Source of the DNA: Rhizophagus irregularis
Taxonomy: Eukaryota > Glomeromycota > Glomeromycetes > Glomerales > Glomeraceae
DNA: 64,000 nt
Assembly: GCF_026210795.1 (NCBI RefSeq)
Contig: NC_089442.1
Coordinates: 4,678,501 to 4,742,500 of the forward strand
Direction: 5' to 3'
The position numbers and the translations under genes were made by a program. Below, one piece after another: positions 8,759-61,260 of this stretch (the stretch's first letter is position 1; each line of letters opens with the position of its first letter). The notes beneath the pieces are model-generated. The model was not told the origin of the DNA and did no database searches. It was given only the letters and a program-made list of their open reading frames with translations.

Positions 8759-11700
8759 TCTAGACCTTCAATAATTGAATCAAAAAAATCATCAAATACA
8801 AATGAAAAAGTAAAAAAAAAGTTACTCCTAAAAAAGATATATTTACAGAAAAAGAAATAAAAAATAATATTCAAGATAATAAAATTGAAAATGTGATCTC
8901 TTTAGAAAATCCATCAGTTGATATTAAACAAAAGAATATAATACCTCCTTCTATACAAATTGATACTGAAAATGAGGATGAAATACCTGAATCAACAAAA
9001 GTCTTGAAAAGATTTTCTGCCGAAAAAAGTATTTTACAAAGACAAAATAGTGTTGATACAGTTCGTTCTGTTCGATCTTTATCAAGTCCAAGTCTTAGAC
9101 CGAAAGGTGCAAGACAATTGGAAAAGAGGAGTAAAGTTAAATTAGCGAATGATAATTCTAACAACAATTCTTCTCCGATCAATCCTTCTCAACCTGAACT
9201 TCAAATCCCTACTAATGATGAAATCACTTCAATTAAATTAGGAGAAGCAATTTCAACTAAATCACAAGAAGCAGCTGTTATTTTGGCTAAATCACAAGAG
9301 GAGGTTATTTCAACTAAATCACAAGAAGAAATTAAATCGAAAGAAGAAGTTATCTCGACCAAATCAAAAGAGGAAATTATTTCGACTAAATCACAAGAAC
9401 AGGATGTGACTTTGGCTAAATCACAAGAAGGGGTTAAATCAAAGGAGGAAGTTACTTCAACTAAATCACAAGAAAAGGAAGTTACTTTAACAAAATCACG
9501 GGAGAAAGTTACTTCAACTAAATCACAAGAAAAAGAAGTTACTTTAACAAAATCACAGGAAAAAGTTACTTTAGCAAAATCACAAGAAAAAGTTACTTCA
9601 ACTAAAACACAGGAGAAAGTTTCTTCGGCCAAATCACAGGAGAGGGTTACTTCTACTAAATCACAGGAAAAAGCTGCTTCTGCTAAATCACAAGAAAAGG
9701 CTACTTCTAAATCACAGGAAAAGGCTACTTCTGCTAAATCAAAGGATAAGGTTACTTCTTCTAAATCACAGGAAAAGGCTACTTCTAAATCGCAAGAAAA
9801 GGCTACTTCTAAATCGCAAGAAAAGGCTACTTCTAAATCACAGGAAAAGGCTACTTCTAAATCACAGGAGAAGGCTACTTCTGCTAAGTCAAAAGATAAA
9901 GTTACTTCTGCTAAGTCAAAGGAAAAGGTTATTTTGGCCAAATCACAGGAGGAAGTTAATTCTGTTTCAACTAAATCGCAAATCATCTTGACTGAATCAC
10001 AAGAAGAAACCATTTTGACTAAATCGCCAGAAGAAATTTCCGTGACTAAATTGCAAGAAGAAATTGCCGGGACTAAATCACAGGAAGAACAAGAAATTAT
10101 TTCAGAAGAAATTTCTTCTGATAGATCGCAAGAAGAAATTGCTTCAGATAATTCGCAAGAAGAAATCGCTTCAGATAATTCGCAAGAAGAAATTGCTTCA
10201 GATAAATCGCAAGAAGAAATCGCTTCAGATAATTCGCAAGAAGACATTGCTTCAGATAAATCGCAAGAAGAAATTGCTTCTGATAAATCTCAAGAAGAAA
10301 TTGCTTCTGATAAATCGCAAGAAATTTCTTCTGATAAATCACGAGAAATTGTTTCAGATAAATCGCAAGAAATTACTTTGGTTAAATCAGAAGAAATTCC
10401 TACGTCTTCACCATCAATTCAAAATGTACCACCTCAACAAGTTTACTATGAAGCAAGCAAACCACCTCCTGTTCGTCCACCAAGACGTCGTTTACAATCG
10501 GAACCTCTAATAATTGATACAAAACCAATAGAACATAATAAGATTAAACAAATTGAAGAAAAAGATTTAACCACACCTTCTTCAATTTCTTCAAAAAGTT
10601 ATGAAAGGAAAATTTCCATAACAAGTTCAGAGGGTGGACCTTATCCAACAACTCAATTATCTTCTTTAGAACGAGAAAATTTCTTAGAAAGATTATCTGA
10701 TGCAGATTTTAAAATATCTGAATTAAGAAAACGTGAAAAATTATATCAAGCTGAAATTGATTTGGCAAGAAAAGCTGGTTATATACCAACATTTAGTTTT
10801 AGTGATGATAATAATGAGGATTTGGAAAATATTATTGATATTAATGAATTTACTGATATTGGAAAACCTGGATCCGAAAAATTCAAAGTTATTGAAGCTA
10901 TTATTAAATTAAGTCAACAATTACAAAAAGCAAAGGTTAGTACAAAAAGAAGTTTTTAGTTCACTGAACTTTTATCAAGAAAAGTTTTTTAATATTTTTT
11001 TTTTAACCGTTTTTTTTCTTTTTATTTAGGAAACTATTGCATATCAAGAAAGAGTGGCATCACAAAAGATTTCAGATTTTGAAAGGTTATATACTGCATC
11101 ATTGGAAGAAACAGCATATTTTAAAGCCAAGTTTGCTGCTTTAATGAATGAATATGAAACTGAGAGATTAGCAAGAACGGCGATTGATGTTGAAGAAATA
11201 AAACAACGATTAAATGAAAAAACGCAAAGATTAGAAAAAACAAGTCAAGAAGTTGAAGATGCAAAAAATAAAATTGAATTTATTCGAGAAGTTATTTCAG
11301 ATAAATTAAATATTGAACCAGATGAGAAAGGAATTATATCATCACGGTTTAAAGAAATTGCAGCTCGTTGTGATGAATTAGAAGCACTTCATGAAACTGC
11401 GCATAAAGAATTACGAGCTTCTTTATCAAAATATAAAGAAACTGTAAGATATGCTCAAGGAACTTTATCTAAAAATAATTCAGCTAAAGGATTAGAAAAT
11501 AAATTAAAATCGGTAGAAAGTACGACGGTGAAATCACAAGAACAACTTGTTGATATAAAAAATAGATTAAGTCAAGTTGAATCGGATTATCAAACAGCTG
11601 TAGAATGTACTACAAATGCGGAACAAGTATTAAATCAAATGAGGGAAGAATTAATACAAAGTAAATTAGAAATGGAAAAATTAAATGAAAAATTAATTAA

Positions 11701-20978: not shown

Positions 20979-23280
20979 TTATTCCTCATTATCATCATAA
21001 TTATCGTCATTATTATCACCGGCATCTATACCTAATACATCATCTATATCATAATCATAGTCACCTTCTCCGGGTCTCTTGTTATTACCACTATCATCAA
21101 CTTCATCATCTTCCGCATTATTTTCATCTGAATCATCCAATATATCTCTTGGAATATCGCCGATTTCACTAGTAATTGAATCATGCGATAAATTAACAAA
21201 TTGATCAATCCATAGACTTTCGATTACTACACGGCAATTGTCTTCGGGTATTGTTTCGCCGCTTGTAGTTAATCTCTGAGTAGAAGCTTGCTCCTCATTA
21301 TATTCCTCATCGTAAATTAAATCTCTGCAAAAAGCACTGCAATACGTATATTGATCTCATCATCACTAAGACGAGTATTCTTTTTTTGATCAATTCCATA
21401 AAATCCAAGTTCAGTTTTTGAATTGGATTTCCAATACAAAATTAATTTGCACATGGATTCTAGTTTATCCACATTAAGATTTAAGCGACGTTTATGAAAT
21501 AGCCATCCTAAAGTCGAAAATCCACGTTCGCAAGTTGCTGAGTTAGGACATATTGCAAATAGATAACTTGCAATTCTTGGCAGGACATCTGGTTCTGGTT
21601 CGGTATTAATATATTTCCACCAATTCACAGGATTATCTTTAGCAAAACCGATATCTAGGTCAAATGGCTCTTGCTCATTAATATATTTCTGTATTTGATC
21701 ACATAAAGTTTCAGCTTCGTAACGGTCGAAACCTAAATTTTTCCCGATTGAAGCTGCACATTTGATAATTCTCATGAGGGCGCATTTTTTAAGTGGCGCG
21801 TTTCTAAATCTGGGATCCATAAAAAAACAAGTAATATACTTATCATCATCGAATTCATCAAATCTTTCATTTATTACTTTGATACAATGACTTCGGAATG
21901 CAAGATTTAATGATTTGGGTAACTTTTTTAATGTAGCTGCAAGTCTTGCCAAGCTCAGGAAACAATCTGCAAGTGTAGCTCTTCTCGATTCTAATGAAAG
22001 TACCGCTTTTCTTAGAGGATCCAGAACAAACCCAAGAACTCGTAAATTTGAAAAAAAATTTCTCGATTGAATAATCGGTTTTATTTTATCATTTGTTAGC
22101 ACTTTATCGTGATCGCTGGCCATTTCTTCTAGTGCTGATTCCAAATTTATTACTGAATTTACGGATTCACTAGCAGTAGTCCAGCGTGTCTTGCAATATA
22201 ATTTTAATCCTCCTCCACTAATTCCTTTTTCTTTAATTATTTGAGCAAGTTTTGCATTAGCCTGATGAGAACTTCTAAAAAAGGTTGTCAAAATATTAAC
22301 ACGTTTTAATAAACGTTCCCCAAACTTCTCCTTGACGATGTCGCATGCAATTAAATTGATAGAATGTGCAACGCATCGCACATTCTCAATCTTTGGATGA
22401 TTCTCATGTATAATTTTTCGTGCATTACGAACATTGGCCGCATTATCAGAAACTACAGCATATATTCGATCTTCTCCAATACCTTCTATAACCTTTTCAA
22501 TTACCGTAACTAGATATTCTGCAGTGTGCGAATTTTCAGACAAATCAGAAAGTTGATAAAGATATTCTTTACGCGACAGAGTCATTACAATGAAGTTCCA
22601 AATTGAACGATGTGTACCAGACGTCCAACCATCAAAGGCTAAATTATAAATTAATATTATATAGTAAGTAAGATTAAATAAAAATGACGTATGATAGCCT
22701 ATTTAATTTAACAAACCTAACGTTAAATTCGTTTCCTTTTTAAGCTCAGAATTAACTTTGAAGTTCACTTGAGCTAATTCACGTTCAAGTAGTTGATTTA
22801 CTAATACTTCCCTTGTTGGTGTATTGTACCCGGCATTAAGCTCTTTTATAAAATTGATGAAAAAGGGATGTTCCACTACTCTAAACGCAATTCCGCACGC
22901 AATAAAAAATTTAACTAATGCACGATTAATTCGTGTACATCTTTGTTCGTTAAGCTCTGTTGAATCATGGTAATCATCCATGTTACTTTGACTCAGAGTA
23001 TTTTCTTTTTTGGATGACTTGGACTTATCTTGCCGTTCCATTACTTTAGTCGTATACCTTAACGAACTGCTGCTGGCGCATCTGGACAATGGTTTGAAAG
23101 ATGCTCTTCGAGCTTTGAAACTTCACCGCGTGACCATGTATTCTTACAGTACTTGCAGGAGGCGGCAAATTTGCCAGAACCAACAGCTTCTCCTTTATTA
23201 ATATCTTCCCAAATGCTATTAGGTGGGTGACCTCCTCTATTTTTCATTTTAATGGGTGAATCTTCTATGTGATCAGTCAT
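20979..23280 (-). pseudogene. hAT transposase with BED zinc finger, probably one or two frameshifts
   Basis: Exon 1 runs 23280-22717 and exon 2 starts at 22638 after a 78-bp GT-AG intron. The N-terminus holds a BED finger (CKYCKNTW...HLSNHC). At about 23053 the frame breaks (AAVR then a stop; the next frame continues LRYTTKVMERQDK), repaired by one base. The core has FDGWTSG and VVSDNAANV (the usual Asp residues) and the C-terminal hAT dimerisation block NSATCERGFSTLGWLFHKRRL. The main frame stops at 21317; an acidic Asp/Glu/Asn-rich tail continues in another frame from 21324 to a stop at 20979, so a second shift or an unseen intron is possible. Up to 21317 the repaired product would be about 628 residues. 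Cuts and pastes the surrounding element if active. Confidence 0.85.
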
Positions 23281-26574: not shown

Positions 26575-29500
26575 ATATCAGTCGTTGGAAATGTCACAAA
26601 AAAAGCAGGCAAATTTTTTTTATTAAGGTCGGTAAAAAAAAAATTGTGGCGCAGTATCACCTTTAAAAGTATAGCATATATATATATAATTAAAGTTGGG
26701 CAAAATTAGTTAGATCAGCGTAAATTTGCCGATCAAAAATTCATAATTCCGGCCAAATTTTTTGTAATGCTGGTCAAATTTATAATGCCGGCCTAAATTT
26801 TACGAAAATTAAAAAATAAAGGTATAACGTAACACTACATTTATATAATATGATGCCTAAACTTAAATAACAAAAGTTAAACATATTGACCTCTAATATA
26901 ATTTTATTAAAGAAGTTTTCATATAGCATTTATTACTTCACTTGGATCTATCCTTGAAGGTGGCTTACTTTTTATTATTAAAAGTAACGAAAAGTTGAAG
27001 AAACTTTAGAATTTATTAAACGCGGTAAGAAATTTAAACTCTAAACTAATACTAGTAAAAATATACATATTTTTTATAGTTAAAATTTGAAAAGCAACCT
27101 TTTTTTTAGATTTAACGTTTATTTAATAATAAACCCAGCAAATAATGAAGAACCTTTTAACGAATATGAGGAAATTTGATAAGTGATGAAGATTTTGTGG
27201 ATAAAGACGAAGCTTTTTATGCTGAAAACGAAAATTTAGTGGATAACATTGAATTTTTTAATAATTATGAGGATTTAAGTAATGTAGAAAATAATAATAA
27301 TGATGAATCTTTATTTGAATTAGATTTTAATACGCTCACGAAGGTTAAACAATTTACTCAACAAAATAATTCTGATGGAGAGGATGAAAATATAATAAGT
27401 GATACAGAAAGTAATTTTTCAGAATCAGAATCTGATGAAGAGCGTGATGAAATTATTGTTCAATTAAAAGATAAACAAGAATTAAGTCCATGTGTTATAA
27501 TTGATGTATTTGAAGATAAAATTCAAAGATATAATTCTACAACAAATTTAAGGAAACTATGGCAGATGGTTGGTATGTGGCAAATTGATGAAGAAGAGAT
27601 TAAGAAAAAGCATTTTTCAATTAAAGATTTGGGCATTTGTTATTCACACTTTATGTACGATCAAAATAAATTACATATATCAAATTTAAAGCAAACTAAA
27701 GATTATACAGAAAGTATTATTCACCATTGCCGTTGTTTATTTTGTAATAAAAATAAGTTTTTTTTTAGCCGTGGTAAAAATTGTATACAACATTCATATA
27801 CAGTTATGGATAAAAATATTCAAGTTCCTTGCATAGGACAAAAAAAATGTGGTGCTTTGCAAGAATACCATTCTCTTGTAATTTCAACAGAATTAAGCAA
27901 ATATGCACGATATATATGTATGACTTGCTATGAAAAAAAGGGTGGGCATGTTTACCAACGTGTTGGACGAGGTGTAAAAGAAGATCCAAACTGTGACAAT
28001 ATGTCACATCACGAAAATGACACTAAAGAAGCATTGGAAGCAATTGGACATTAGATTTTTAATATTGCAGCTTCTGAAAAAACAATGTGGCAAAAAAAAG
28101 TTTTAATACATTTAGTTTGTGCTATTACTCAACTTAATCAAGAAAAATCTGATAATTTATCAACAGATACAAAAACTGAAGTACCTTCTTTATTTATTAT
28201 TCTAATTATCCTTGCCTTAATGAAATTTATTTATAATTCAGATAAAAAATTAAATCCTAAAGATCTCACGCCAAAAATTTTTTTTGAATTTGGAGAAGTA
28301 TTAGCACATTCAACAATATTTGCAAAAAATGAATTAAAACTTCATAAAAAATCGCTTGAATCACCTATTTCTATAGAAGAGTATCGTGCATCATTTTCTT
28401 TATGTTTAGTACAATTCTATGATGGTCTTCTAAGAACTTTATATGAAACAAAAAAGAAAATTATAGATCGAAAAAAAAACATCGTGAACAACTACCAAAA
28501 GCTTTAAATTATGAAAACATTAATAAACAAATTACATTTTTTGTTTCAATAATTTTAAATATTGCGTTTAAAGAATGGAAAATTTGGTTACCTCAAACAA
28601 TGGCGAGTCTTTATCGTAAACCAAAACTCTTATCTTCTTTGCAAGGAATTTTAAAAATAGTTAATATTACTAGTCATACTCAAAGACATGAACGTAATTT
28701 AGAAAAAATTCGCACTCTTTTAGTGGATCCAACCAGTCGAATTCTTCGTGAAGAGAATATTTGGAACTTAGGTATAATCGATAATATTGATTTTAAGGAA
28801 ACTACGTTTGGCTATAAAAACATTTTTGATGCTATTAGGGGTAATTCACATACATGCTACATTACGCATGTTATTTCAATATCAATTACCTGAATCACCC
28901 AAAGTTCTAGAAGCGCAAGAAATAATTCAAGATCAGCAACAACTTTTTGGACAAAATTCTTTCTCACAAAAAACATTTCATACTTTCAATTTAATTTTTG
29001 AAAAACTACTTGCCTTTAGTGAAAATTTTACATACCATTCAGATTTTGATGAAAGTGATATACATAATCAAATTATGACATATTTTACAATTGGTTGTAA
29101 TTTTGAGCTGCCAAATATTGTAATTCTTGATGCAAGAGATCCATCATCAAGTAATTCTGCTGTATATAAATGTTTAAAGATGTATGAAAATGAAATTAGT
29201 ATTGGAAATAATGATTATATTAATGTTGCTGCAGATGAAGCAATATTTAGGCATGGCATTAGTTATTGTAAAGCAAATAATAAAACAAAAATGATACTTA
29301 GGCAATGGCACACGAGTAAAGATATGATGTCTATGCTAATAACAATATTCTCAGGTTATGGTATTTTTAATATAGCAGGAATATTAGGCGTTCAATTTTT
29401 GGATAAATTGGAAAAAGGTGTAGATTTTAGGGCTACTTCAAAAGTACTGGAATTAATTTGGGTTGCAGTTGGACTAGCAATTCATTTATATGCAAAAAAG

Positions 29501-31323
29501 AAAAAACAAACATTAGATGATATACTAGAAGAAAATAAACTTATAAAAATTTGGTACCTATATTTTCAGTGGGCTAGTTATTGGCGTGCACATTGGTTTG
29601 GAATCTGATGGGGTATCTTTGATCTACAGCATGAAAGTTTAAAAGCTTTTTCCCCATTATTCCCCATTGCTGGTAAATCAAACTATGCTAGATCCATAAC
29701 ACACCACATTTATTGTATTGAAAATGATTCTAAACTTCGTGCAATGCTTCGTATAGCACCATCCATTAATTTGATAAGTTCTGGCCATTTTTTTGCGTAT
29801 GATGAAGCATTGAAAACATTTGGCATAAAATTTGTAAAACAGAATGTAACGAGAATTCCTACAGATTCAGAAGAATTAAAGTTAAAAATAAAAGCCACAC
29901 AATTAGAGAAAGAATGAACAGATATGTTGATTTGTGATTACATTGGTGATTATGTTCAAAGTTCCAAGCTACATAATGTTCAATCTCGAAAGGAAAAGAT
30001 TTGGGAGCTTGTACATCAGTTAGTTGATGCTTTTGAATTTGCAAATCCTCTTGAAAATCTAATATTTGAATTCTGTAATAATATAAATGATAAAGGAATT
30101 GATCAGTTAGTTGCTGCATATGAAATTGGAATTAATAGGTTACAAAAAATAGTAAATCAAGAGATTCTTTTGACAGAAAATTACACAACTGTTAGAAGAA
30201 GAGAAAGAAATATTACACGTGTTATGCTTGCCGATATTGCTAAAATGAAAAAAGAAAGAAAATTAGAGGAAAGGGAGGAAAGAGGGAAGGAAAAGAAAAA
30301 TAAGAGAGGGAGGGGAAGAGGAAGAAGAAGGGGGAGTGGAAGAGGAAGAAAAAGGGAGAGTGGAGATGATGAAGAAGCGACCACATAAAATAATTCTTTA
30401 ATTAAAACATTAAAAAAATTCTTTTTTTTGCAATAGATATATAATAGAATTTTAATTTATTTTGGAAATTACATGAAATTACATGATAATTAATATAAAT
30501 ATACAGTAATTAGGATTAATAAAAAAATTAAAAGGTAATTAAAATATTTTGATCGTTTTACAAAAAAAACAATTAGCTAACGGTAAAAAAGAACAGTCAA
30601 ATTCCATTAAGAAAAAAAGCCCATTTACCTTTGTCTGTTAGTAAATACTATTCAGCTTACACAAAAAAAGATAAGTTTAGATCTACGCAAAAAATAATAA
30701 CTTTTAATATATAATTAAAGCAATCTACATGAAGAAAAGTTGTTAACTTACAAGCTGCTAAATAAAGGGTGGCGTCAATCGTCTAATTATTTGATTGAGA
30801 CGAAAAAAATTAATGATGTAATTTAAAAAAATGTTATACAGATTATAAAGGATCATAAACATGAATATTTACCAAAAAAAAGTATCTTTTATTTATCTTT
30901 TTACTGCATTTGACTTCGTAAAGCTTCTTATTATAGTAAAAAAATCAGGTTTTTACCTTTTACACATAAACCGTCTAAATAACCACATTTATGACCTTAA
31001 AAAATTTTTTTCCTCTCGTAAATTTACATATATCTTTATTGTTAAAAATATATTTTTCTATTTATCCCAATTTGGATCTTGAAAAACGCCCATTTTTAAG
31101 GTGTTTTTTTATAAAGGTTTAAAAAAAATTTTTTTTTATAAAAAAAAAATAATAACAATAAAAATTGATAGAACACATGATATTCTATCAACTTAATAAT
31201 TTACATAAGTGTGATTGTTTGAAATTCAATGATTGGTTACAAAATGAAGAAGTGCGATCAATGTTACACAAAACTAATTAAATATAAAAATGATCTGCAT
31301 GTGACATTTCCGATGACTGATAT
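26575..31323. mobile_element. TIR-bounded element of about 4.75 kb with unassigned gene
   Basis: Left end ATATCAGTCGTTGGAAATGT-CACA (26575-26598) and the reverse complement of the right end, ATATCAGTCATCGGAAATGT-CACA (31323-31300), match in 22 of 24 positions. The flanks allow an AT dinucleotide target duplication, but the palindromic end makes the exact border uncertain. The single large coding region (27130-30388) lies between the ends with about 550 bp on the left and 900 bp on the right. I read this as an autonomous-size DNA transposon that has decayed. I cannot place it in a named superfamily. Confidence 0.65.
27130..30388 (+). pseudogene. Unassigned large protein of the TIR element, decayed
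   Basis: Coding sense runs for about 1,085 codons but is broken by in-frame stops TAG at 28052, TGA at 29606 and TGA at 29915, and by frameshifts near 27175, 28475 (in an A-run) and about 28850. Order of parts: acidic Asn/Glu/Asp-rich N-terminus; a Cys-rich part with HCRCLFC, then VPCIGQKKCG and ICMTCYEKKGGH, probably zinc-binding; a helical middle (LPQTMASLYRKPKLL); a part with NIVILDARDPSSS, VAADEAIFRHG and MILRQWHTSKDM; SPLFPIAGKSNYARS; and a basic tail of Arg/Gly/Lys repeats. Zinc-binding region, conserved acidic positions and basic tail would suit a transposase, but I recognise no DDE signature. No start codon is seen; ATA at about 27130 may replace one. Function not assigned. Confidence 0.65.
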
Positions 31324-34633: not shown

Positions 34634-34946
34634 TGTAACAGCCTGTTACGCGTCTTATTTGTAATAACCCCCAATTTTATCCAATTAAAATTTAAGATCA
34701 GGCGTAATGTAAACAAAAACAAAAGATTAGTTGTGTAACTAAGATAAAAGAATTTTTTAAAAAATTTCAAGAAACTGCTTATAACTTAAAATTTTGTCTA
34801 TGAAACTGTCTTAAGTACATTAAGTAAAAGTTTTCCAAATTAAATTTTGCATATAAAAATTTTATTTGTGAAACACATATTAAATTTATTATTAAAAAAA
34901 AATAAAAAAAAGATGTTACAAATAAGATATATAACAGGCTGTTACA
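34634..34946. mobile_element. 313-bp MITE, TGTAACAGCCTGTTAC ends, copy 2, inverted
   Basis: Same length and internal sequence as the copy at 32001-32313, in opposite orientation; for example TTTAAGATCAGGCGTAATGT and AAAATTTTGTCTATGAAACT are the complements of matching words there. The flanking bases (ATAAATCTAAT before, AATACATTTTTTC after) also match the other copy's flanks. Confidence 0.75.
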
Positions 34947-35439
34947 AATACATTTTTTCTTATTTAATATAAATATATAAATTACTATTTTAAATAATTT
35001 ACTAATAATATATAGTTTAAAATTTATTTAATTAAAAAAATTGAATAATATATAAAATTAAATATTATAATTTTATTTTTAAATACTAATTACTTTACAC
35101 TTAACGTAGTCAAAGTGATTCCTATTGGGTAGTTAGGTAGAGTATAGGTAGAAGTTATGTAGCGTTATCTGTTATTATTCGAATTTTATTTATATACTGA
35201 AATTTATTTATTTATCAATTTTAAAATATATTAATTTACAATTGAAAATATATTGTTATTAACATTTATTTAAATTACAAACAAAAAAAAGCTATATTAG
35301 ACTAATTGCGCAGTGATCTGCAATTCCACAATCACGTGATTCGTGTTTTGACGTCTCTCATAAAATATCATTATCCGTCACAAAACCTAAAAGTATAAAG
35401 AAACATTAATAAAATAGTTCTTAAAGAAAAAATATTCTT

Positions 35440-37200
35440 TTTCCAAATTCATACTTCCCAAAGAAAAGTCTGGTTGAAACCTATAAAGAAAAACCTAAGT
35501 CCAATTTAAAAAATAAAAAATTTAAATCCAAAAGCTGTGATCAAAATCTACAAACAGAAATTCCGAATCAAAGTCAAAGCCAAAGTTTGAATCAATCCTA
35601 CAAAAAGATAATCAAATAGCCTACAAAAAAGAAAATAATATCCAAAGTAAAAGTTCAAAATACCCATAAAAAAGAAATTTCAAGATAAAATGAATCAAAG
35701 TAGCTATAAAAAGAAAATCTAAGTCAAAAGTTGAAGTAAACTACAAAATAAAAATTAAATTAAAAGATGAATCAACCTACTAAAAAAATCCAGAGTTAGA
35801 ATCTCCAAAGCTGAAGTTCGAAATGAAGCAACCTACAAAATGAAAATTTTTCAAAGTCCAGGCCAAAATCAAAACGAAACAACTTATAAAAGAAAAAAAG
35901 ACCAAACTGAAGTTGAATTGAAGCCAAAGTCCGGACTGAATGTCTTAGACTAGAATCAAACTAGTCAAAGCAATGCTGCTCTCCGCCAGGATAAGACTAA
36001 AAAATTAAAAAATTAAACAAAGTCAAAGCCCTACAAAAAAGAAAAAGAAAATCAAGTTTGAATTTGACTTACAAAAAAGAAAAAGAAATACAAGTCCAAA
36101 TTCAAAGTTAAAGCCCTACAAAAAAGAAAGAAAATCTAAGTCCAAGGTTGAAATGACGAACCTACAAAAAAGAAAAAGAAATTCCAATTCTGATGAAATG
36201 TTAGCATAATATTTCATATAAATAAGAAAAAAAATGGATTTCGAAATAAGAAATCTAGAACCAAAGTTAAAGGAACCTACAAAATAGAAAAACAATGAAA
36301 CTTTAAAATATTTCATAAAAGAAAGAGGAAAAAATTAAATTTCTAAGCAAAACTTACTCAAGATATCCAAGTTGAAGCCGGATTCTACAGAATAAAAAAG
36401 AAAATTTAGTTTTGTCAAAAAAATAATTAATAAAATATAAAAAAAAAGTTTTATCTATAAAATTCAATGCGTAACTTACAATCCAATTCAAGAAGTCCAA
36501 TCCAAGAAGGGGCTAGCACCTACAAAAAAAAAGAAGAAATATTTAGTTTCTTCAAAAAAATTTAAAAAAAATGTTTTTTTGAAGTTTCAATGTGAAACTT
36601 ACTAATCCATCCAAGAAGTCTAGTCCAAGAAGGGGCTGGCACCTACGAAAAAAAGAAGAAATATTCAGTTTCTTCAAAAAAATTAAAAAAAAAATATTTT
36701 GTTAAGATTTTAATGCGAAACTTACTGAACCAATCCAAGAAGTCTAATCCAAGGAGGCCGGCAACTACGAAAAAAAATAATAAATAATTAGTTTCTTTAA
36801 AAAAACTTTAAAAAAGTTAAAACAAAGTTTTAAAGTTTCGCTTTGGAACATACCCAATAATTCAAAGAAGTCCAACCAAATCGAAGCTGATACCTGCGAA
36901 AAAAAAGAAGAAATGGTTTAGTAAACTGTTCTTTAATAAAAAAAATGAAAGTTTCTTCAAAACTTACCCACTTGAAGAACACCCAATATATAGAATAAAA
37001 AAAAGAAACAAGTTTTCTTCAAAAGAAAATTCAAAAGAAAAACTTTAGAAAAAAAATTTTGAAGCTTTCGCTTCAAAATTTACCCAAAGATTCAACCTGA
37101 AATGGAAGCTGGTCTTAGAATAAAACTTAACTTCAAAACTTTTGAGCCAAAACTAAAGCTTCTGAACTTAAATTTAGACTTTCGTATCAAAAGTCTATTT
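35440..37200 (-). repeat. Tandem array of exon-like units with splice borders
   Basis: Read on the minus strand, the array repeats the pattern pyrimidine tract, then YGTAG (3' splice-site-like), 27-40 bases, then GTAAGTTT or GTATGT (5' splice-site-like). Complete units with both borders are at 36893-36854 (40 nt), 36764-36726 (39), 36642-36603 (40), 36519-36480 (40) and 36384-36358 (27), spaced 122-135 bp; a weaker one is at about 37110-37081. Exon-like cores share CCAGCCCCTTCTTGGA and GGACTTCTTGGATTGG. Toward 35440 the units become shorter (about 45-60 bp) and keep only the TTTCTTTTTTGTAG border and a CTTTGACTTTGG-like core. No common open frame links the cores, so this may be non-coding or a decayed micro-exon gene. 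Confidence 0.6.
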
Positions 37201-40200
37201 TTAAATAATGATTCTAAATGTAGATCATTACTGTTTATGTAAATCCTCTTGGAGATAAATTTTAATTTTTCTTCCGCTCATAATAATTATTTTAAATGTG
37301 TAAAGATGTAGAGAATTACTTATATCATGTGTTGATAGTTAATCAGCCATAAATTGGTATATATCTTTAGCAAATTATATTAAAGGTGTTATAAGAATGT
37401 AAAAAGTTTTCAATAATAAATATTATGGATGTTGATGTATTTTTTTTTACGTTAATCAAAAAAAAAATCCACTTCATAATAATGTAATATGTCAATCAAA
37501 ATCGAAAAAAAACATAAAATCTCAATGAAAAAAAAAAGATTTTTTTTCGTACATTAATTTTATTTTAAGTTATCAAAGCCGCAGTTAAACGCAGCCAACC
37601 CGCAGCAATAACATGACTTTCCGGAGATTAAAATAATTATCGATTCTAAAAAAAATTTGCTATTTGATAATCTCAACTAACTGCAGCCTAAACGTGACTT
37701 ATTAGTATTGTGATCTAATAAATTAAAAAAAATGAGGCAGAGTAGTTGCGTAACTGATGTCTATTGGTTACCAATAGGTGTCTACTATGCAACTACTCTG
37801 CCTCAAATATATGAGTTTCAGTAAAGTAATACTAAAATTTTAATTTCTTTTTATTTATTAATTTTAAAAATGTAAATTACTATTATTATTTAATAAAAAA
37901 AATTAATAACAAAATATTTTTAATATTTAAAAAATCTATAATTAATATAATTTTATTTATTAATTTTATAGATAATTATATTACTATTAAATATATTTTA
38001 AATTTTAATAAAAGAAATTTAATAATTTTTTATAATTATAGAATTTTACAGTATCTTTAAAAATAGTTATAATAATTTTAATATGTATTTTTCTTTACTT
38101 ATCTAATAAAATGTGTTAAGGGGAGTTACATATATTATGTAATATTCAGTTTAATATAAATTTACTCCCCTCCCCCCTTATCAGATTTAATAACCAATCA
38201 AATTATAATATTTATAAATTATATATTTTATTAAGTGTAATGTAAGATTTCTATTATCCCTCCTCTCCTTTCGATAATTACGTAATATCCTGTAGTTCTT
38301 CTAACTTTTTTAAAAAAAAAGTAAAAAAAAAAATAATTTTAATTTTTTCTTATTTATAAAAGTAATAATAAAAAAAATGCTTAAAAATATAAATAAAATG
38401 TTATAAATAAATAAATTTTTTCTTTAATAATTTATAATAATTTTAGAATTTTATTATTATTAATTATCAAATTTTAAAATTTTACAAAAAAAAATAAATT
38501 TTATAATTAATATAAAAATAGATTATTAAAATAAAAACATTTTAAATTAATAATTAATTTAAAAATAAAAAACCTAAAATAATAATATTAATTAAATTTT
38601 CTTTTAATTATTTTTATAGGTTAAAATACTATAATAATACATATTACCTTATTGTTTAATTAAAGTTAAAATTAAAAAATTAATCTATACCTTATATATA
38701 CTATAAAATTATTATTATTTCTATAAAAGGAATTTAATAATTAACAATTTTCCAAAAAAGGCTAAAAATAAAATTATGTAATAAGACTTATAAAATATAT
38801 ATTAAGTAAAAAAAAAAGTAAAATATTTATAATATAATTTTTTTTTAAAAAAAAAATGCAAATTTTATTGAAATTTTAATTTACAATATATTAATTTTTG
38901 TATGAAAAAAAAATAAATGCTATTTATAATATTCATTTGATTTTTAAAATAAAGAAGAAAAAAAATACTTATTTATAAAGAATATAAAAGCAGTTATTTG
39001 ATATTTTTTTTTAATAAAAGCAGTTCTTTGAATAATACAAAAATTATATAATAGAGTTCAATTTTTGTTATTAAACTAATTATGTAAAGAAGCTAACTTT
39101 TTTAAGTATACAAAGCATAAGATTTTTAAGGCCATGCCATTTTTATTTGAAATTTTATTTAAAAGTCACGTGATGCAAGATGATTAGCCACAAATAGGAA
39201 TAAGAAACGTTTGCGTTTTTTGCTAGAACTTTTCCACTGCATCTAGAATATTTCAAAATTATAAAAAATTTAAGTATTAAAGAAGTATGATTTTTTAATA
39301 TTAAAACGAGTACTTTTGTAATAGCAAATCAACTTTGTTGAAAAAAAAAAGAGAAAACCAACCTTTCACCATGAAAACCATTCATCAATGGTTTACATAA
39401 AAGTTGAATATAAAAGAAAATATTTTCATTAGAAATTATCAATGCATTCAAATAAGAAAATTTTTTAATAAAATATTTCCAAATTTGAATTACAACGGTA
39501 CGATGATGCTCAATAAACTCAAAAACGTGACTAATTGGATAAAGCTTATATTTACTTCACCGCATTTGACGCTTCTCTATTTTCTTTTGTAGGATTCGAT
39601 AGGGATATTGGGAGTGATAATTATTCCAAAGAATACATAATGTGATAATTATCTTTAAATTCTACTTGATTATCTCGTGAATTAGAATACTACTATTTTT
39701 TTTAATGGGAATTACCAAAGTTTTCGGTATCACCGTTAATAGTTATGCATAATATGCATGTAACATGATATAAAAAGTAAATTAATGAACTTTAAAAATT
39801 AATTTAACCCAACCCCAATGAAACAAACGAATATCCTATCTAACAAACCTTATTTTAAGTTCAAAGATAATACTATTTTTTATGCACAAATATAGACATC
39901 TAGAGAGTTATCACTACATGTTATCGTAACACCCAAAGAAAAAAGGTTTCGAAAAAAACTGAAAAAAAATTTGCGAGGAGGGACAAAAGAAAAATAGGGA
40001 ACTGCGATACCATTTAATTAATAACACAAGACAGTACTGAAAGAGTTAGAGCCGAAGGTTATTACTGAATTCTCGGCAATACCTTAGAATGTTTCGGTAG
40101 AACTTTTGAATATTTAATATAAAACTTCCCAAACCCGTTCGGAAATCAAAAGTACCCACATAATCCCGATCCTAAAATGTTGTACGATGACATAATCGAC

Positions 40201-42422
40201 CTGAAAGGAGTGTCGTAGAGAAACATAACTATATTTTTTGTGGCTTAATAGGTTTCATAAACGTGGCTGTGCACAAATACGCCAAAACAGGGAATTTAAC
40301 TAATTCACATTTCAATGAACTGTAATTTGAGACTAATTTTTTTTGTTGGATCACTACGCCCATAATATACTGGAGTTTTACCTTTCATATAATAAATTAA
40401 TTGTATGCAAAACAAATACGGTAAAGAATAATAAATTAAGCAGTATACATATTAATTATAATACAGTTTCGCTATTGGCCGAGGTTAGTACAAATAAATA
40501 AGTAAAGGTTCGGAAACAAATTAATTTATTAAGTAATGATCAAATAATTACATCCTTTTTTTTATAGTTACTGCGTAAATAAAATTACGGAATGTTGATC
40601 TTACACGACGCAGCATTAAACTAGTTTAGATCATGCGTTAATATATGAAAATTTAAATAATTTTCTATAACGTAATTCTAACCTTTAGAGTCGAAAGAAA
40701 CGAAATTCATTAGAACAAAAAAATTATTATTTATTATATGATGAAGTCATTATATTTACATATCTTAAAAGGAGGCCACGAATAAATTTGATAATCAATT
40801 AATCCATTAGTAAATTTTTATTATATAAAATTTTCATAATAAAAGCGCGTCGAAATAAAAATAATATATTATTTATTTAGTGTAATAAATATTTATAAAT
40901 AATAAATATATATAAATAAAATAAATTATATAATATATAATTATATATATATATACACATATATATATTATAATATATAAATAAAATAGTACATAATTTA
41001 AATTCCAAATAAAGCTTATAGTAATCAATTTTTTTTTTAAAATAATGTTATATCAACACGTGAATTTATATTACTTACAGGTAATTAATGTACTTACAAG
41101 TAATTAATTATTATTAATTATCATGTTCGGATCTAATTTTTAATAATATTCAGCCTTCGATTATTAAATATTCGGAATAATCGGGAATTCCTATTAAGTA
41201 AGGAAAGGGGGGGATTCAATTAATGGAAATAAACACAGTAATTCGATTATAAGATTGTTAGAATTCTATAATAATAATCATCAGTAATCTTCTTAACTTT
41301 AAAATAATGAGTAACAATCATTAATATTGATCCTATTATAAATTATTATATCAGAAACGCCAATGGACCCGAGTAAATCTGCACTTTTGTTACATACAGG
41401 AAAAAAAAAAAATTTTTTATATTACAAGTTACAATTCGAACAAAGAAATCGATTTTTTATGATTTTATGAAAATTTTTTTTTAGGTTAAATTATACATAT
41501 TTTTTTTCTATATAAGATTGCAAATACTTGTGAAAATAACACAAATAATTGAATTTGGACGTGTCTTTTATGTATATTGCATCATTGTTATTAAAATCTG
41601 ATCAAAACAAAACCCTTTTATGACTCTTCTTTTGGAATCTCACTCAATATATGGTTTTCTTTATTTTTCTTTTTTTAAAGAAAGATACTCTATTTACATT
41701 ATTTATATCATCCAAGTATAACGTTACATTTCTACCATTATATATTTTATGTATTTATCCTTATATTGTGCAATAGAATCATATCAAATGTAGAAATTGT
41801 GTCCAGTTATCTACTTCACCGTTTCGATCCGCTTTAATTTCATTTAAACATTCGTTTATAAAGCTACACAAATAACCGAATGACATAATATGCTAACTAA
41901 ATTCATTTTTGCTGCGCATTCATGTTCAAATAGCTTTGAAAGTAGGCATTTAAATAGTTACACGTGTCAAATCTATAAAGAGTATAGTATTCATAGAAAA
42001 TTTCGTAATAGTAATAATCGAGAATTTCATTGAATAACGTTTGGTAATGGTGGCACGTGAATATTCGTTTTTTTAAATGTATTTATATACTAGTTTGTCG
42101 CAAAAAATTTAAAAATTGCCCGCATTGAAATCCCCTTTCGAAGAGATGTTCTCTATTTCACTCCTTTAAAAAAAAAATCGCAAAGAGATTAATTTCTTTA
42201 TCATTCGATCATTCATTCGGGTCGAGGTTATTCACTTCCTCACAAAATTAAATGATGTTGTATGTTCGTTCATTTATTTTTTATTTTTATTTATTTTTAT
42301 TTTTATTTTTTTATTGTTTTGCTGTATATGCTGTATAATCAAAAAATTTTGTCCTTTTAACTTATCTACTTCTCCTTTCCCTATATTTTTACATTAATAA
42401 ATTGAAGAAGATAAAAAAAAAA
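37201..42422. other. Gene-free A+T-rich stretch
   Basis: No gene I can support. It has a near-perfect hairpin (37733-37805) and a weak TIR pair at 38116-38180 (AAGGGGAGTT and CCCCTCCCCCCTT). A 62-codon frame at 39404-39592 shows no family and is probably chance. The last 200 bp before 42423 are T-rich and likely hold the F-box gene promoter. Confidence 0.5.
37733..37805. repeat. Near-perfect 73-bp hairpin
   Basis: The left arm TGAGGCAGAGTAGTTGCGTA pairs with the right arm, whose complement reads TGAGGCAGAGTAGTTGCATA (one mismatch). The loop holds a second palindrome, CTATTGGTTACCAATAG. It is markedly G+C-richer than its surroundings. Probably a tiny foldback MITE; a structured RNA is possible if transcribed. 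Confidence 0.8.
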
Positions 42423-43828
42423 ATGCAACCCACGGACTTGATTTCTACGAACAAACGTACTCTTTTAAAATTACCTACAGAAATTTTTTACGTTATTATG
42501 GATATGTTAGGGACAAATGATCTGCGGAAACTTTCATGGACCTGTAAACTATTGTACCACATCGCACGCAAATATCACTTCGGAATCATTTCTCCCATTT
42601 GGGAACCGGAAGAAATTTCGCATATTGATATCCCTATCGCTTACTATAGACATGGAGTGTGGTTAAACGATATTTTTTATTTACCGATTTTTCGTAAAGA
42701 GAATCCGATTTGTTGGTTGCTCGATCTAACAAATAAACCGATCAAATGGTTTCAAAAACCCTTAATTATCGAATCTGGTTCAGAACATCAATATGAACCA
42801 ATAAAATATTACGCTTCAGCTGCAATTAAAAATTTTATTTATATTTTTGGTGGAGAAAATATCGATAAAGGTATAACTACCAACATTTTTTACGAATTAA
42901 ATATATACACGTTTATTTTACGTGTTATAAACAAAAATAACGAGAATAATGAAAACTTTACTCCAACCCCTCGAATGATGCATACACTTGACGTTATAGA
43001 CAATCATCGTTTAGCGATGTTTGGTGGATTAATTATTGACGGTATATATTAAAATATATATATATATATATTTATTTATATTTATATTTTTATTTATTTA
43101 TTTATTTATTTATTAAAATGAATAGCTTGTACTCTTAAATTTTCATATTTTAGTAAAAAATAATTTTAATCTTTTTATTTTTAAAAATAGATAAAAAATT
43201 TTCTTTCGATAGCAAAGATTTTGCAATATACGATATTAAATCGAAAAGTTGGAATTATTATGTCCAAGAATCTAACATTCCATATCGACGATCTTTACCG
43301 TGTTCTCACATAACGAAAGGGAAACTTTATATTTACGGTGGTCAAAAATACAAATTTTTTTCGAATTCTTCGGAAATTCATGACGATGAGGATATTTCGG
43401 TCTTCGATTTTTATAAAGAAAAATGGTATAAACTATTAAATCTTCCCATCGAAGGAAGAACCTCAATGTTACTCCCGTCCGATTGGAAATCAACTACATC
43501 GGCTTACCAGAAACCTGTACCGGGTAAAAGAATTTTTGCTGGAATGTTTACGATGAATAATCGAATTGCAATATTTGGAGGTTCTAAAAAAGATGATTAT
43601 AATTGGAATAATGAAGAAGTAAATCGCCCATGGGAGTTAATGCACTTATTATCTACAGTTAATCATCATTGGGAATATATTAGAATAAAAAATTTACCGC
43701 AAATTGAAGTTTTAACAATTTATTGGAAAGGTTGGAATGTTCATGAAGGATTATTTCTTATCGGAAAAGATAAAAAAGAAGGAAAACTAATTATGGGTTG
43801 GGTTAAGGACTCAAAATTTATAATTTAA
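42423..43828 (+). CDS. F-box/Kelch protein
   Basis: Two exons, 42423-43041 and 43191-43828, joined by a GT-AG intron in phase 1; 418 residues. The start is the ATG at 42423 (MQPTDLISTNKR). Residues about 14-50 are an F-box (LKLPTEIFYVIMDMLGTNDL...WTCKLLYHIA). Then come Kelch-type blades marked by FIYIFGG, HRLAMFGG, KLYIYGG and NRIAIFGG. F-box/Kelch proteins are substrate receptors of SCF ubiquitin ligases: the F-box binds Skp1, the Kelch blades the target. The target is unknown. The intron contains long TATATA and TTTA runs. The frame is clean throughout. Confidence 0.85.
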
Positions 43829-52309: not shown

Positions 52310-53690
52310 TTCCGATTGAAAACCAAGGAATGATGTAATAACAATTATTCTAATTATGACATGGACGTTTGTTCGAGTTCTTTAATCATAGGTATATATA
52401 TTGTAAATTATAAGCAATTTATGATTTATCAAAGTTTCTTAAATTCGGACATAATACTTAACTTCTAATTGAGACATGGATGTTTGTTAAATTCGGACTT
52501 AATACTTATCAACTTTTATGATCTTCTCCGATAGAATACCAAGGAATGATGTAATAACAATTATCCTAATTAGGACATGGACGTTTGCTCGAGTACTTTA
52601 ATAATGTGTATTTATACTGTAAATAGTAAGTAATTGATAAATTATCAAAGATTATTAAATTCGGACTTAATATTTATCAATTTTATGAACATTGTACATA
52701 GTAACATGGTTTTATTTTTTGATTTCTGATAGAGGAGTACGTGTAATTTGGTTTGCTATCAATCATATTTTGTCATGAACATTTGCGCGCGTTTTCAAAT
52801 TCAAGATCTGGTAAGAATTATCAACAAAAAAATCGGATATTTCAGAACATTGCACATAATAATATGGTTTTTTTTTGATTTTCTGATAAAGGAGTACTTA
52901 GAAACTGTTATGTTACCAATCATAATCTGGCATGAACATTTGCGCGCGTTTTCACATTCATGATCAGGTAAGATGCATCACATAATATTAATCAAAAATC
53001 GGTTCAGTATTTTTTAAAATTGCTCAAAATGGCAAGGGTTTTTTTTTATTTTCTGCTAGAAAAGTACGTTGAAAGCGTTTTGTTACAAAACATTGTTGTC
53101 ATGAACATTTGCTCGCTTTTTCACAATCAGATCAGGTAAGATGCATCTATAATATTAATCAAAAATCGGCTATTTCTTAACATCGCACATAATGATAAGG
53201 TTTTTTTTTTGATTTTCCGATAGAGAACTACGTTGAAAGCGGTTTGTTACAAATCATTTTTTGTCATGAACATTTGCTCGCTTTTTCACAATCCGACCAG
53301 GTATGATTTTTCATATAAGTAGAATCTAAAATTGGTTGTTTCAGGGGATTACACATAATAACATGGTTTCTTTTTTTGATTTCTGATAGAGGAGTACTTA
53401 GAAACTGTTATATTACCAATCATATTCTGTCATGAACATTTGCGCGCGTTTTCACATTCATGATCAGGTAAGATGCATCATATAATATTAATCAAAAATC
53501 GGTTATTTCTTAACATTGCTCTTAATAACTTAGTTTTTTTATTTGATTTTCTGATATAGGAGTACGAGGAATGCGTTTCGGTACATATCATTTTTTGTCA
53601 TGAACATTTGCTCGCTTTTTCACAATCAGATCAAGGTAAGATTCATCATATAAGAAGAATCAAAAATTGATTATTTCAGAGGATTGCACA
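52310..53690 (+). repeat. Tandem array of about 77-nt exon-like units with splice borders
   Basis: Two kinds of unit. First, a 216-bp repeat (two copies, near 52318 and 52534) with ACCAAGGAATGATGTAATAA and GACATGGACGTTTG. Then six units of 159-170 bp whose core is bounded by a TTTTGATTTTCTGATAG-type 3' splice site and a GTAAGATGCATC-type 5' splice site. Cores with both borders: 52733-52810 (78 nt), about 52892-52967, 53060-53135 (76), 53224-53300 (77), 53390-53467 (78), 53560-53635 (76). Four cores keep the peptide VMNIC(S/A)(L/R)F open in one frame; the second and fifth carry stops in that frame. Introns between cores share AATATTAATCAAAAATCGG. Either a micro-exon gene under amplification or a decayed tandem duplication of one exon with its flanks. 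Confidence 0.65.
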
Positions 53691-53729
53691 TAATAACATT
53701 GTTTCTTTTTTTTTGATTTTTTGAAATTT

Positions 53730-55858: not shown

Positions 55859-57493
55859 ATGGAATTTAACATTTCAACTGATATATTTGAAGACTTAACG
55901 TATTTGCTTTATAATAAAACTTTTGATGTAAAAATTAAAGTTGGGAAGGAAAATGATATTAAAGAATTCAGTGCACATTCTACTATATTATCTACTAGAT
56001 CAATTCATTTTCAAAACGCTTTATCCAATCAAACAAAAGAATCCGGATGTTTTATTTTAGAAAAACCTAATATTTCACCCTCAATATTTAACATTCTTTT
56101 AAAGTAAGTAGAACTTGATAATTATAGCAGCATCATAAATTTGATAAAAACCTTCGATCTTAATTTCTTAAAATTATTTAGATATATTTATTCAGGAAAG
56201 TTAACAGTGAAGAAAAATGTGAAATGCCTTTACGTTATAATCGCAGCTTATGATTTACAATTGCAAAACGTTGTAGAACATCTTGAAAATTATTTCAAAG
56301 AAAATGATTCGGCTTGGAAGCTTCCTAAAGATTTCTTTATCATTAGTGAACAGAGACAACTTAAACAATTAGAAGAACAAGTATTAAAGTTAGCATGCAC
56401 AGATCCAATAATCATATTTAATTGTAAAGATTTTCCGCAACTTAATGAAGGATTTCTTATTCGACTTTTAAAACGTAATGATCTTGAATTGAATGAAATT
56501 AACATTTTTTATTATTTGGTCAAATGGGGAATTGTGAATACTGGTCTAACTTTAAATAAAAAATCATTTTCACCAATTTTAATTTTTGATAAAGATAGAT
56601 CAATTTTAGATTTCGTTATAGATACAAGAAAGTGGACCCCAATTGATTTTATGAATTTGGAAAAAACTATACGAAATTGCATTCCTCATATTCGATTTTA
56701 TCAAATGTCACTTGGTGATTATACGGAAGTCAAAAATGAATTTAAAGATATCCTTCCAAATGGACTTGATGATGAAATTATGCAACATTTCAAAGATTCT
56801 AATCCTTTAATGAGAATTCCATCTAATGATAATATATTACCACCAAGAGAATCAGCTTGTCCATTTGATTCTAACATCATTAATGCGAAAGATGTAGCAT
56901 TGATTGCAACTTGGATCAATGGAGGGAAAGGAAAAAAACATGTGTTTCAATTTAAAAATATACATTTCAAATTTGAATGTGTCTATCGTAGTAGTATTGA
57001 TGGATTTGACAAATATGATAATTTATACAAATATAAGAGAGTTGTTATTGTAATTAAAGTTCGTAATTCAGGAGAAATTATTGGTGTATACAATCCATTT
57101 GGATGGGATATTAGTTACAGTGAATATATCCTGTTTAAATTGTTTAGAGATTTTCTATCTCGATATTTTATTTTTTCTTTAACTAATAGGGTCAATCCAA
57201 TTATAAGTTATCATAAAGAAGGAGCTATGTCAAAAATATCAAATGAGAGACACATTCTATTTGGTACATCAGATTTATCTATTAATGGTATTTATTGCAC
57301 TAGTGAACAACACTCTTTTAAGAAAAAAATAATTGATAAAGTAAGGTTTGAAATAGATGAATTGGAAGTATTTCACATTACTAATAAAAATATTGTTATA
57401 ACACTTTCAAGCAATATTCCTTTTTTAATTATCATTTTTATATTGTATTGGCTTTGGATTTTAATAATTTTTATAATTCTTAATAAAAAGTAA
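55859..57493 (+). CDS. BTB-BACK-TLDc protein with C-terminal membrane segment
   Basis: Two exons, 55859-56103 and 56182-57493, GT-AG, phase 2; 518 residues. Start MEFNISTDIFEDLTYLLYNK. Residues about 5-105: BTB/POZ (FDVKIKVG, FSAHSTILSTRS, LLKYIYSGKL). About 110-210: BACK helices. About 318-486: TLDc domain (DVALIATWINGG, FKFECVYRSSIDG, IIGVYNPFGWD, FLSRYFIFSLTN, FGTSDLSINGIYCTS, FEIDELEVFHI). BTB mediates dimerisation and Cullin-3 binding; TLDc is linked to oxidative-stress protection and V-ATPase regulation in other proteins. The usual end after EVFHI is here extended by about 30 residues with a strongly hydrophobic stretch (IPFLIIIFILYWLWILIIFI) and a short NKK end, as in a tail-anchored protein. 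This extension is unusual. It may come from a former stop lost by mutation. Confidence 0.85.
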
Positions 57494-57612
57494 TATAAAA
57501 AGTAGTAGAAGTAGTATATGGTCTCAACTGCTTTTTGATTTATTTTTTTGTTGAAAAAAAAATTATAAAAATATAAAAGAAAATGTATTTATTTATTGGC
57601 AATTTCTATTTG

Positions 57613-58063
57613 TACACGGGGTGTTTAAACACGGGTCATATTAGTAGATTAAAAACGGCATTCAAAACCTCCTTTAATGCCTTAAGTAAACTTGCAGAGC
57701 AGGTGAAAATACATATATTTATCTGTAATATAATAAGAATAAAAAGTAAAAGAGTATAATGTCGGTAGCATTCAATTTCAAATTAAAAAACAAAAAATTA
57801 GTCTATTAAAAATTAGGCAATTTCTATTTGTACACGGGGTGTTTAAACACGGGTATTAGTAGATTAAAAACGGCATTCAAAACCTTCTTTAATGCCTTAA
57901 GTAAACTTGCAGAGCAGGTGAAAATACATATATTTATCTGTAATATAATAAGAATAAAAAGTAAAAGAGTATAATGTTGGTAGCATTCAATTTCAAATTA
58001 AAAAACAAAAAATTAGTCTATTAAAAATTATATTTATATGACCCGTGTACAAACACCCGTGTA
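57613..58063. mobile_element. MITE with a tandemly duplicated end
   Basis: Left TACACGGGGTGTTTAAACAC (57613) and right end whose complement is TACACGGGTGTTTGTACACG (to 58063), both bounded by TA, form inverted repeats followed by GGGTCAT. The left 218 bp, including the preceding GGCAATTTCTATTTG, are repeated almost exactly from 57831. So the element has two left ends and one right end. No coding sense. Shares ACACGGGTCA with the MITE at 23843-24201. Confidence 0.75.
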
Positions 58064-59596: not shown

Positions 59597-60988
59597 GAAC
59601 TTTCAGTATAATTACGAAGATAATGATTTAAATTTTCAGAATATTAATGATAATGATAATGAATATGAATCAATTGGTCCTTAGTATTACAATAATGAGA
59701 TGAAAGATGATGATCAATTATTTGATAATGAAGAGGAAAAAGAAAATGACAATGAATACAATAAGGATGAGGAGGAAGATGATGATAATGAAGATACTAA
59801 TAATAAAGAGAAAGGTAACGATGAAGAAAAAGAAGAACATAACAATGATGAAGAGGAACGTAATGACAACGAAGAGAAAGCAATACATCAAATTATTAAA
59901 GCTTTGAATGAAGACAAGATACTGTCCTGCAATAGTGAATTTGCATTGTACATTGATAATTATACAACTACGGCACTATTTTGTTAGCTTTAGAAGCATA
60001 ATGTTTTTATAAAAGTATATAAAGACCTTGTTGATATTATTTATAATCTTCAATTTGAACCTACTCATATAATAAAAAATATCTGTAAATTCTAATCATA
60101 GAGAAAACATCTTCCTTTCCTACCAATAATAATAAAGCCTATTCAAATTTTACCAAAAAAATCCCTATCAATTTCGCAAGGTTTTATTAATTTTCAATTA
60201 ATAATATTATATGATGTATTTTCAACAATTCAATGCTGATGAAGCATATGTATTTTGGACCTGATGTTAATTTTGAAACAAAATCAGAATATTGGCATAA
60301 AACATTATAGAGGAATCACCACTTTTTGGACAACATGAAATAATAATATCAGAAGGTAATAGAATAATATACTTTGATATAATTATGATTTGTTAACATT
60401 AAATATTTATTTTAATAAATAATAATATATCAATCTGGTAATTTTGTCTACTATCATGATAATGGTTTTCAAAAACTTGAAAGGTTGAGAGCAATTATGA
60501 AAATAAAAATGGAAACTATGAGTTAAAAGTTCAACTAATTTTAAATTATGATGATTTATCTGGAAATCTAAAAGGCTATCAAAATGACGTTGTTCTTTAA
60601 CTGAAAAAGTATAGTTTTAGAACAAACCATTTATAACCATATATAATGACCTTTCAAATTTTAGAGAAAATAACTATAATGATAATGTATCAACACTGAC
60701 CAAATTATTCCAGAAGGTTCATTACAAATTACTGAAATAATTTATAAATGTAATGACCATTGATACATTCATAATGCAAAGCTTTCATATCAATATCCTT
60801 CAGATTACATTTCTGTCAGAAATCCACCATCATTTATGCCAGTTTATAAGCTGTTTTTAGATCTTTACTATGATAATTTTGGTATATTTAGAAATGTATA
60901 CCATTCTTAGGTGGCGTCTATATACAGTTTGGTAACATGCCAACACATCAAAGAAAGCTAATTAAAAACTATTTTGTTCTTGGATTTA

Positions 60989-61260
60989 TTCTATTTGGCG
61001 AAAATTTTAATGAATTTATAGTACTATTTGTTTCAAAAATAAAAAAATTTGAGAAATTCTATTTGGTAAAAATTTTAATGAATTTATGGTACTATTTGTT
61101 TCAAAAATAAAAAAATTTGAGAAATTCTATTTGGCGAAAATTTTAATGAATTTATGGTACTATTTGTTTCAAAAATAAAAAAATTTGAGAAATTCTATTT
61201 GGTAAAAATTTTAATGAATTTATGGTACTATTTGTTTCAAAAATAAAAAAATTTGAGAAA
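60989..61260. repeat. Four 68-bp tandem copies inside the transposase pseudogene
   Basis: Copies start at 60989, 61057, 61125 and 61193 with TTCTATTTGGYRAAAATTTT and end with AAAAATTTGAGAAA. They differ only at one or two positions, so the duplication is recent. The unit length is not a multiple of three, so each copy shifts the transposase frame. Confidence 0.9.

Follow-up and report, generated by a model that had tools for sequence, protein, structure and literature searches.

A tandem array of intron-like segments and short exon-like cores on the minus strand of a Rhizophagus irregularis contig

The window analysed here, a 64,000-nucleotide stretch of Rhizophagus irregularis contig NC_089442.1, is AT-rich and eukaryotic-looking, with a GC content of 0.14–0.35 in 2-kb steps. 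Its minus strand carries an array of five head-to-tail units, lettered A to E, each consisting of a pyrimidine tract ending in YAG, a short core resembling a mini-exon, and a GTAAGT or GTATGT donor (Table 1). All five units had been described in a sequence-only reading of the region, and each was recovered at the coordinates then given, with cores of 40, 39, 40, 40 and 27 nt. The wider interval assigned to the array in that reading, 35440–37200, applies to its upper part, whereas about 35440 to 36340 follows a different pattern of ~45-bp repeats. No open reading frame (ORF) of at least 100 codons occurs between 30388 and 42339, which places the array in a gene-poor stretch.

Table 1 Coordinates of the array, its edges and the Pfam-matched ORFs of the window (positions count from the first nucleotide of the window; TRF, Tandem Repeats Finder).
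Feature	Position	Strand	Length (nt)	Signals or evidence
Degenerate upstream units	36968–37112	minus		Core before donor 36967 without AG acceptor; distant donor GTAAAT at 37083
Intron-like segment upstream of A	36894–36967	minus	74	GTAAGT...CTAA...GCAG
Core A (mini-exon-like)	36854–36893	minus	40	Splice-border scan; splice-blind TRF profile, E 4.4e-9
Intron-like segment A–B	36765–36853	minus	89	GTATGT...CTAA...GTAG
Core B	36726–36764	minus	39	Splice-border scan; splice-blind TRF profile
Intron-like segment B–C	36643–36725	minus	83	GTAAGT...CTGA...GTAG
Core C	36603–36642	minus	40	Splice-border scan; splice-blind TRF profile
Intron-like segment C–D	36520–36602	minus	83	GTAAGT...CTAA...GTAG
Core D	36480–36519	minus	40	Splice-border scan; splice-blind TRF profile
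Intron-like segment D–E	36385–36479	minus	95	GTAAGT...CTAA...GTAG
Core E	36358–36384	minus	27	Splice-border scan; splice-blind TRF profile, E 1.7e-4
Degenerate repeats downstream (~45 bp), with terminal TTTTTTGTAG-like tracts	35440–36340	minus		TRF; tract list; weak core likeness
hAT/DUF659 transposase ORF	21317–22702	minus		Pfam
Two Kelch ORFs	within 42339–43828	plus		Pfam
BACK+TLDc ORF	56108–57493	plus		Pfam

The borders of the cores have the form of U2-type splice sites, with a GT donor, a pyrimidine tract and a YAG acceptor in all five units. The donor sequences are GTATGTTC in unit A, GTAAGTTT in B, C and E, and GTAAGTTA in D, so that the hexamer is GTAAGT in four of the five units and GTATGT in A. 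The acceptors read CGCAG (A), CGTAG (B and C) and TGTAG (D and E). The YGTAG acceptor and the donor type earlier ascribed to every unit are therefore found in B to E, and unit A departs from both. A branch-point-like CTRA motif (CTAA or CTGA) lies 21–24 nt ahead of the final AG in all five intron-like segments. Two introns of the window, each of which appears to join ORFs, served as a yardstick. The first, on the plus strand at 10936–11029, is 94 nt long and has its motif 23 nt before the AG; the second, on the minus strand at 13299–13215, is 85 nt long, carries ACTAAT ~23 nt before the AG as judged by eye, and was not listed by the intron-segment scan. With lengths of 74–95 nt and a CTRA motif, the array segments have a layout like that of these yardstick introns (n = 2 only). 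The cores also stand out in composition, with a GC content of 0.38–0.50 versus 0.16–0.19 for the four segments between them.

A mechanical scan of both strands of the whole window for a pyrimidine tract with YAG, 20–60 nt and GTRWGT returned no unit on the plus strand and eight on the minus strand. Six of these eight fall within 35440–37200, where five make up a single chain and the remaining one (36115–36073) belongs to the lower repeats; two further units lie elsewhere in the window. Simulated versions of the region (2000, order 2) reached at most three units and a longest chain of two, versus the observed chain of five, and simulated windows (100, order 3, plus-strand letters) gave a longest chain of one and a mean of 1.37 units. 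Together, these simulations rule out a chance origin of the five-unit chain. The region also holds six intron-like segments, compared with a simulated mean of 0.29 and a maximum of three in 1000 simulations, a count in which the repeats are not independent.

Head-to-tail copies are detectable independently of the splice sites as well. TRF reports the middle of the array, 36432–36815, as a repeat with a period of 123 and 3.1 copies. We cut three 123-nt pieces from this TRF array ignoring splice sites, in order to lessen the bias that comes from choosing units by their borders, and built a profile from them. Searching with this splice-blind profile recovers two weak copies (E 3.8 and 4.1) and five strong ones (E 1.6e-35 to 1.7e-4), and the five bordered cores all lie within the strong copies.

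The five units, each taken as a segment plus the following core, were aligned, and cells differing from the column majority were counted. Mismatches occupy 1 of 30 cells in the donor (six columns), 1 of 15 in the acceptor (three columns) and 4 of 20 in the branch motif (four columns), where three arise from a single row whose CTAA was misplaced by a few columns by the aligner and the fourth is the CTGA. The pyrimidine tract has 8 mismatches in 65 cells, the core 54 in 200 and the spacer 73 in 285. Pooled donor, branch-motif and acceptor cells (6/65) vary less than the core (Fisher P 0.0015) or the spacer (P 0.0021), although these P values are optimistic because the units share ancestry; no difference is shown between the pooled borders and the tract (P 0.39). 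The earlier claim that borders are better conserved than spacers stands on this simple mismatch count, with the tract excepted. Mean pairwise identity is 0.83 for the donor, 0.83 for the tract plus acceptor and 0.62 for the core, and reaches 0.79 within cores B, C and D. The copies also show single-base insertion or deletion differences.

Similarity is greatest among the middle copies B, C and D, and the outer copies are shortened or have lost an acceptor or a donor. This gradient, from similar central copies to degraded marginal ones, is what growth by unequal exchange should produce in a tandem array. At the upstream edge, a sixth donor, GTAAGT, lies at 36967, and a weak unit match (E 0.014) spans 37083–37000. 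A minus-strand hairpin at 37054–37083, with an 11–12 bp stem and a GAAA loop, covers the donor-like GTAAAT of this degenerate upstream unit. In the lower zone, TRF finds a period of 46 at 36070–36182. The repeats there have acceptor-like ends and no GTRWGT donors, save one chance-like GTAAGT at 36072, and their bodies are weakly core-like (mean z 1.5 over 15 stretches, versus mononucleotide shuffles). These ~45-bp repeats are possibly worn relatives of the units.

We read the array as an amplified module of an intron plus a ~40-nt mini-exon, noncoding and splice-competent in appearance, and hold this reading tentatively, at slightly less than an even chance. Of the three options offered by the sequence-only reading, an amplified intron–exon piece is also the best fit, and a non-coding spliced RNA stays a candidate. 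The founding module would have comprised one U2-type-looking intron and a ~40-nt mini-exon on the minus strand, without a protein-coding role, and its copies probably arose through replication slippage or unequal exchange. Given minus-strand transcription, each unit should be recognisable to the spliceosome, a competence that we infer, and joining of the 40-nt exons would give a short noncoding RNA for which many exon-skipping isoforms are conceivable. The arrangement is akin to tandem exon duplication, in that an exon-like core and its flanking intron-like segment are repeated head to tail, each copy with both splice sites. It differs in that the array has a tiny core whose length is in most copies not divisible by three, its cores when joined give no open frame, and a search of the window turned up no parent gene.

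Several results weigh against an amplified intron–exon module. As the copies share one ancestral unit, the improbable chain proves repetition but not that its founder was a real intron; simulated windows hold 1.37 units on average, so a single founding unit is attainable by chance. Nine minus-strand intron-like segments were counted, versus a simulated mean of 3.4 and a maximum of 10 in 60 simulations. The branch segment is barely more alike among copies than the 5′ spacer (identity 0.64 versus 0.61), and the ranking of the borders depends on the measure, since rarity-weighted matches place the core-start windows highest and the donor seventh. A border-trimmed profile of cores B, C and D misses A (E 4.2) and E, so that the support for these two units comes from the unit-level profile. 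A parent single-copy exon was sought in the window and was not found.

A rival to the module is a fortuitous origin, in which GTAAGT, CTAA, a T-tract and TAG were present by accident in the founder of an AT-rich tandem repeat, and the motifs were copied with nothing being spliced. Simulated sequence yields both single units and intron-like segments, and T-rich repeats that end in AG but are almost donor-free make up the lower half of the region. Against this stand the lower variation of the borders than of core or spacer, the match of layout and motif distance to the two ORF-joining introns of the window, and the GC contrast between cores and segments. We regard a fortuitous origin as unlikely, though it and a functional noncoding RNA are the two leading rivals of the module.

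ORF lengths show no excess over simulation on either strand, whether for the region, its upper part or its lower part (longest ORF, P 0.32–0.63; summed runs of at least 40 codons, P 0.07–0.44). With all five cores joined in order, no frame is open throughout: frames entering at A stop before D, and the best run, B–C–D, extends for 39 codons and ends at the D/E junction, compared with a shuffled-core mean of 45 (P(≥39) 0.67). Core lengths are multiples of three in two of the five (39 and 27 nt) and off multiples of three in the other three. Upstream of the array, a look by eye revealed no convincing first exon or signal-peptide exon. Minus-strand coding with the cores joined in order is ruled out by the frame test. 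The micro-exon gene put forward earlier finds no backing in these core lengths, the closed frame, the chance-level ORFs and the by-eye look for a first exon.

A protein-coding micro-exon gene could instead use its exons alternatively, with not all cores in one message. Two cores of suitable length and the open B–C–D run would allow this, and skipping could select frames. The run nevertheless lies below its null mean, an ORF excess is absent, three of the five core lengths are not divisible by three and a clear first exon was not seen by eye, which leaves alternative use very improbable in our judgement. Schistosome micro-exon genes (MEGs) have exons that are mostly multiples of three, encode secreted proteins with a signal peptide and contain introns of 0.1–5 kb (PMC10526429). 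The array is like these genes in presenting several very short exons in succession, and unlike them in its three off-phase cores, its 74–95 nt segments and its lack of an apparent protein.

Read on the plus strand, the array could be a worn gene for a Lys-rich tandem-repeat protein, whose TY-Lys words mimic splice borders on the other strand. Lys-rich words do recur there, with stop-to-stop runs of up to 75 codons, but runs of this kind are expected from composition (longest run in the whole region, null mean 78, P 0.52; summed runs of at least 40 codons, P 0.13), and the copies differ by single-base indels. Plus-strand coding was rejected because the ORFs fall within chance expectation, and a worn Lys-rich gene likewise appears very improbable. 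SP7-like effectors of arbuscular mycorrhizal fungi have a signal peptide, a hydrophilic repeat ORF and a single conserved intron (PMC11333574). The plus-strand reading shares hydrophilic Lys-rich words, and possibly the host group, with these effectors, whereas the array has an intron-like segment in each unit, on the opposite strand, and ORFs within chance. On the described gene layout, we set the array apart from SP7 and rejected an SP7-like effector gene. AGL repeat surface proteins of Glomeromycotina have one or two introns only (PMC8786786), an intron count unlike that of the array, and were rejected as well.

A gathering-level Rfam scan of the whole window gave no matches, and at E up to 5 the interval 34800–38000 gave five rows, all at 37729–37809 and none in the array. 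A structured RNA or an intronic small nucleolar RNA host was rejected, there being no Rfam match within the array. Six segments were folded; the 105-nt segment at donor 37083 has a z of −2.7, and the other five range from −1.1 to 0.7. Only this outlying segment folds unusually well, and a shared hairpin of the intron-like segments was discarded. These results bear on a functional spliced noncoding RNA gene, in which selection would act on the splicing of each unit, and either the RNA produced or splicing itself would matter. Such a gene would account for borders that are the least variable part and for a host-like intron layout in five of five segments. The array nevertheless has no Rfam match, its intron-like segments share no fold, and its copies are few and related; we consider a functional RNA gene distinctly unlikely. 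More specifically, selection could keep the splice signals of each unit in a working noncoding gene while the exon sequence drifts, the array being a chain of splice-site pairs that has amplified itself, yielding combinatorial noncoding RNAs or titrating splicing factors, with the ~45-bp repeats as alternative 3′ splice sites. This fuller scheme we deem improbable.

Recursive splicing would make the cores ratchet points, each with a short skipped recursive-splicing exon (RS-exon). By definition, an RS-exon has a donor at its 5′ end (PMC8605326), and three of the five cores (A, C and D) indeed begin with GT immediately after AG, followed ~40 nt on by a second donor. However, the core-start donors GTATCA, GTGCCA and GTGCTA look weaker than GTAAGT, which reverses the order reported there as usual. 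GT is missing at the core starts of B and E, and a long host intron is not evident. We attach next to no probability to recursive splicing.

Relatives of the array were sought with a 20-base core pattern, which matched 10 stretches in viral_contigs and three in genome_contigs, with a single match apiece. At these 13 loci, the core profile matches all 13, the five-unit profile two (E 0.012 and 0.02) and the splice-blind profile four (E 0.0018 to 0.017), in each case once and at the pattern site. Profile search therefore finds no array at any of the 13 pattern-matched loci, which we take as chance matches or unrelated genes. The scanned collections consist of prokaryotic and viral sequence, so the failure to find relatives says little. 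Among the literature matches listed, no title or abstract opening describes a fungal array of this kind.

Beyond the array, a Pfam scan covered ten ORF translations from the window, with matches in four (Table 1) and none in six. Together with the base composition, these genes point to an arbuscular mycorrhizal (Glomeromycotina) fungus. A 73-bp imperfect palindrome lies at 37733–37805, with 77% complementarity between its 31-nt inner arms. The outermost 17 bp, TGAGGCAGAGTAGTTGC, are exact on both strands, and allowing up to three mismatches gives no further occurrence in the window. In Rfam the palindrome matches microRNA families below threshold; it is possibly a small foldback element. Adjoining plus-strand frames at 27170–30388 are interrupted by stops and resemble what we take to be a decayed transposase; the sole piece of them scanned, 28778–29608, has no Pfam match.

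Other tandem repeats are present in the window. TRF reports an array at 52687–53724 with a period of 168 or 334 bp (6.3 or 3.1 copies), a 215-bp tandem pair at 57598–58030 with 97% matches, which is probably recent given that figure, and four tandem copies of a 68-bp unit at 60988–61260 with 96% matches. A 717-codon plus-strand frame at 8806–10959, without a Pfam match, contains a long repeat at 9252–10371 with 27-bp and related periods that is rich in KSQEE/KSQEK-like words.

If untranscribed, the array would be an ordinary repeat that has captured an intron or intron-like motifs. If spliced, it would be a compact natural case of exon–intron unit multiplication, open to unit-by-unit comparison of borders and cores, and it would show what maintains splice signals without coding constraint. 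Gene prediction in AT-rich genomes would also be led astray by arrays of this kind.
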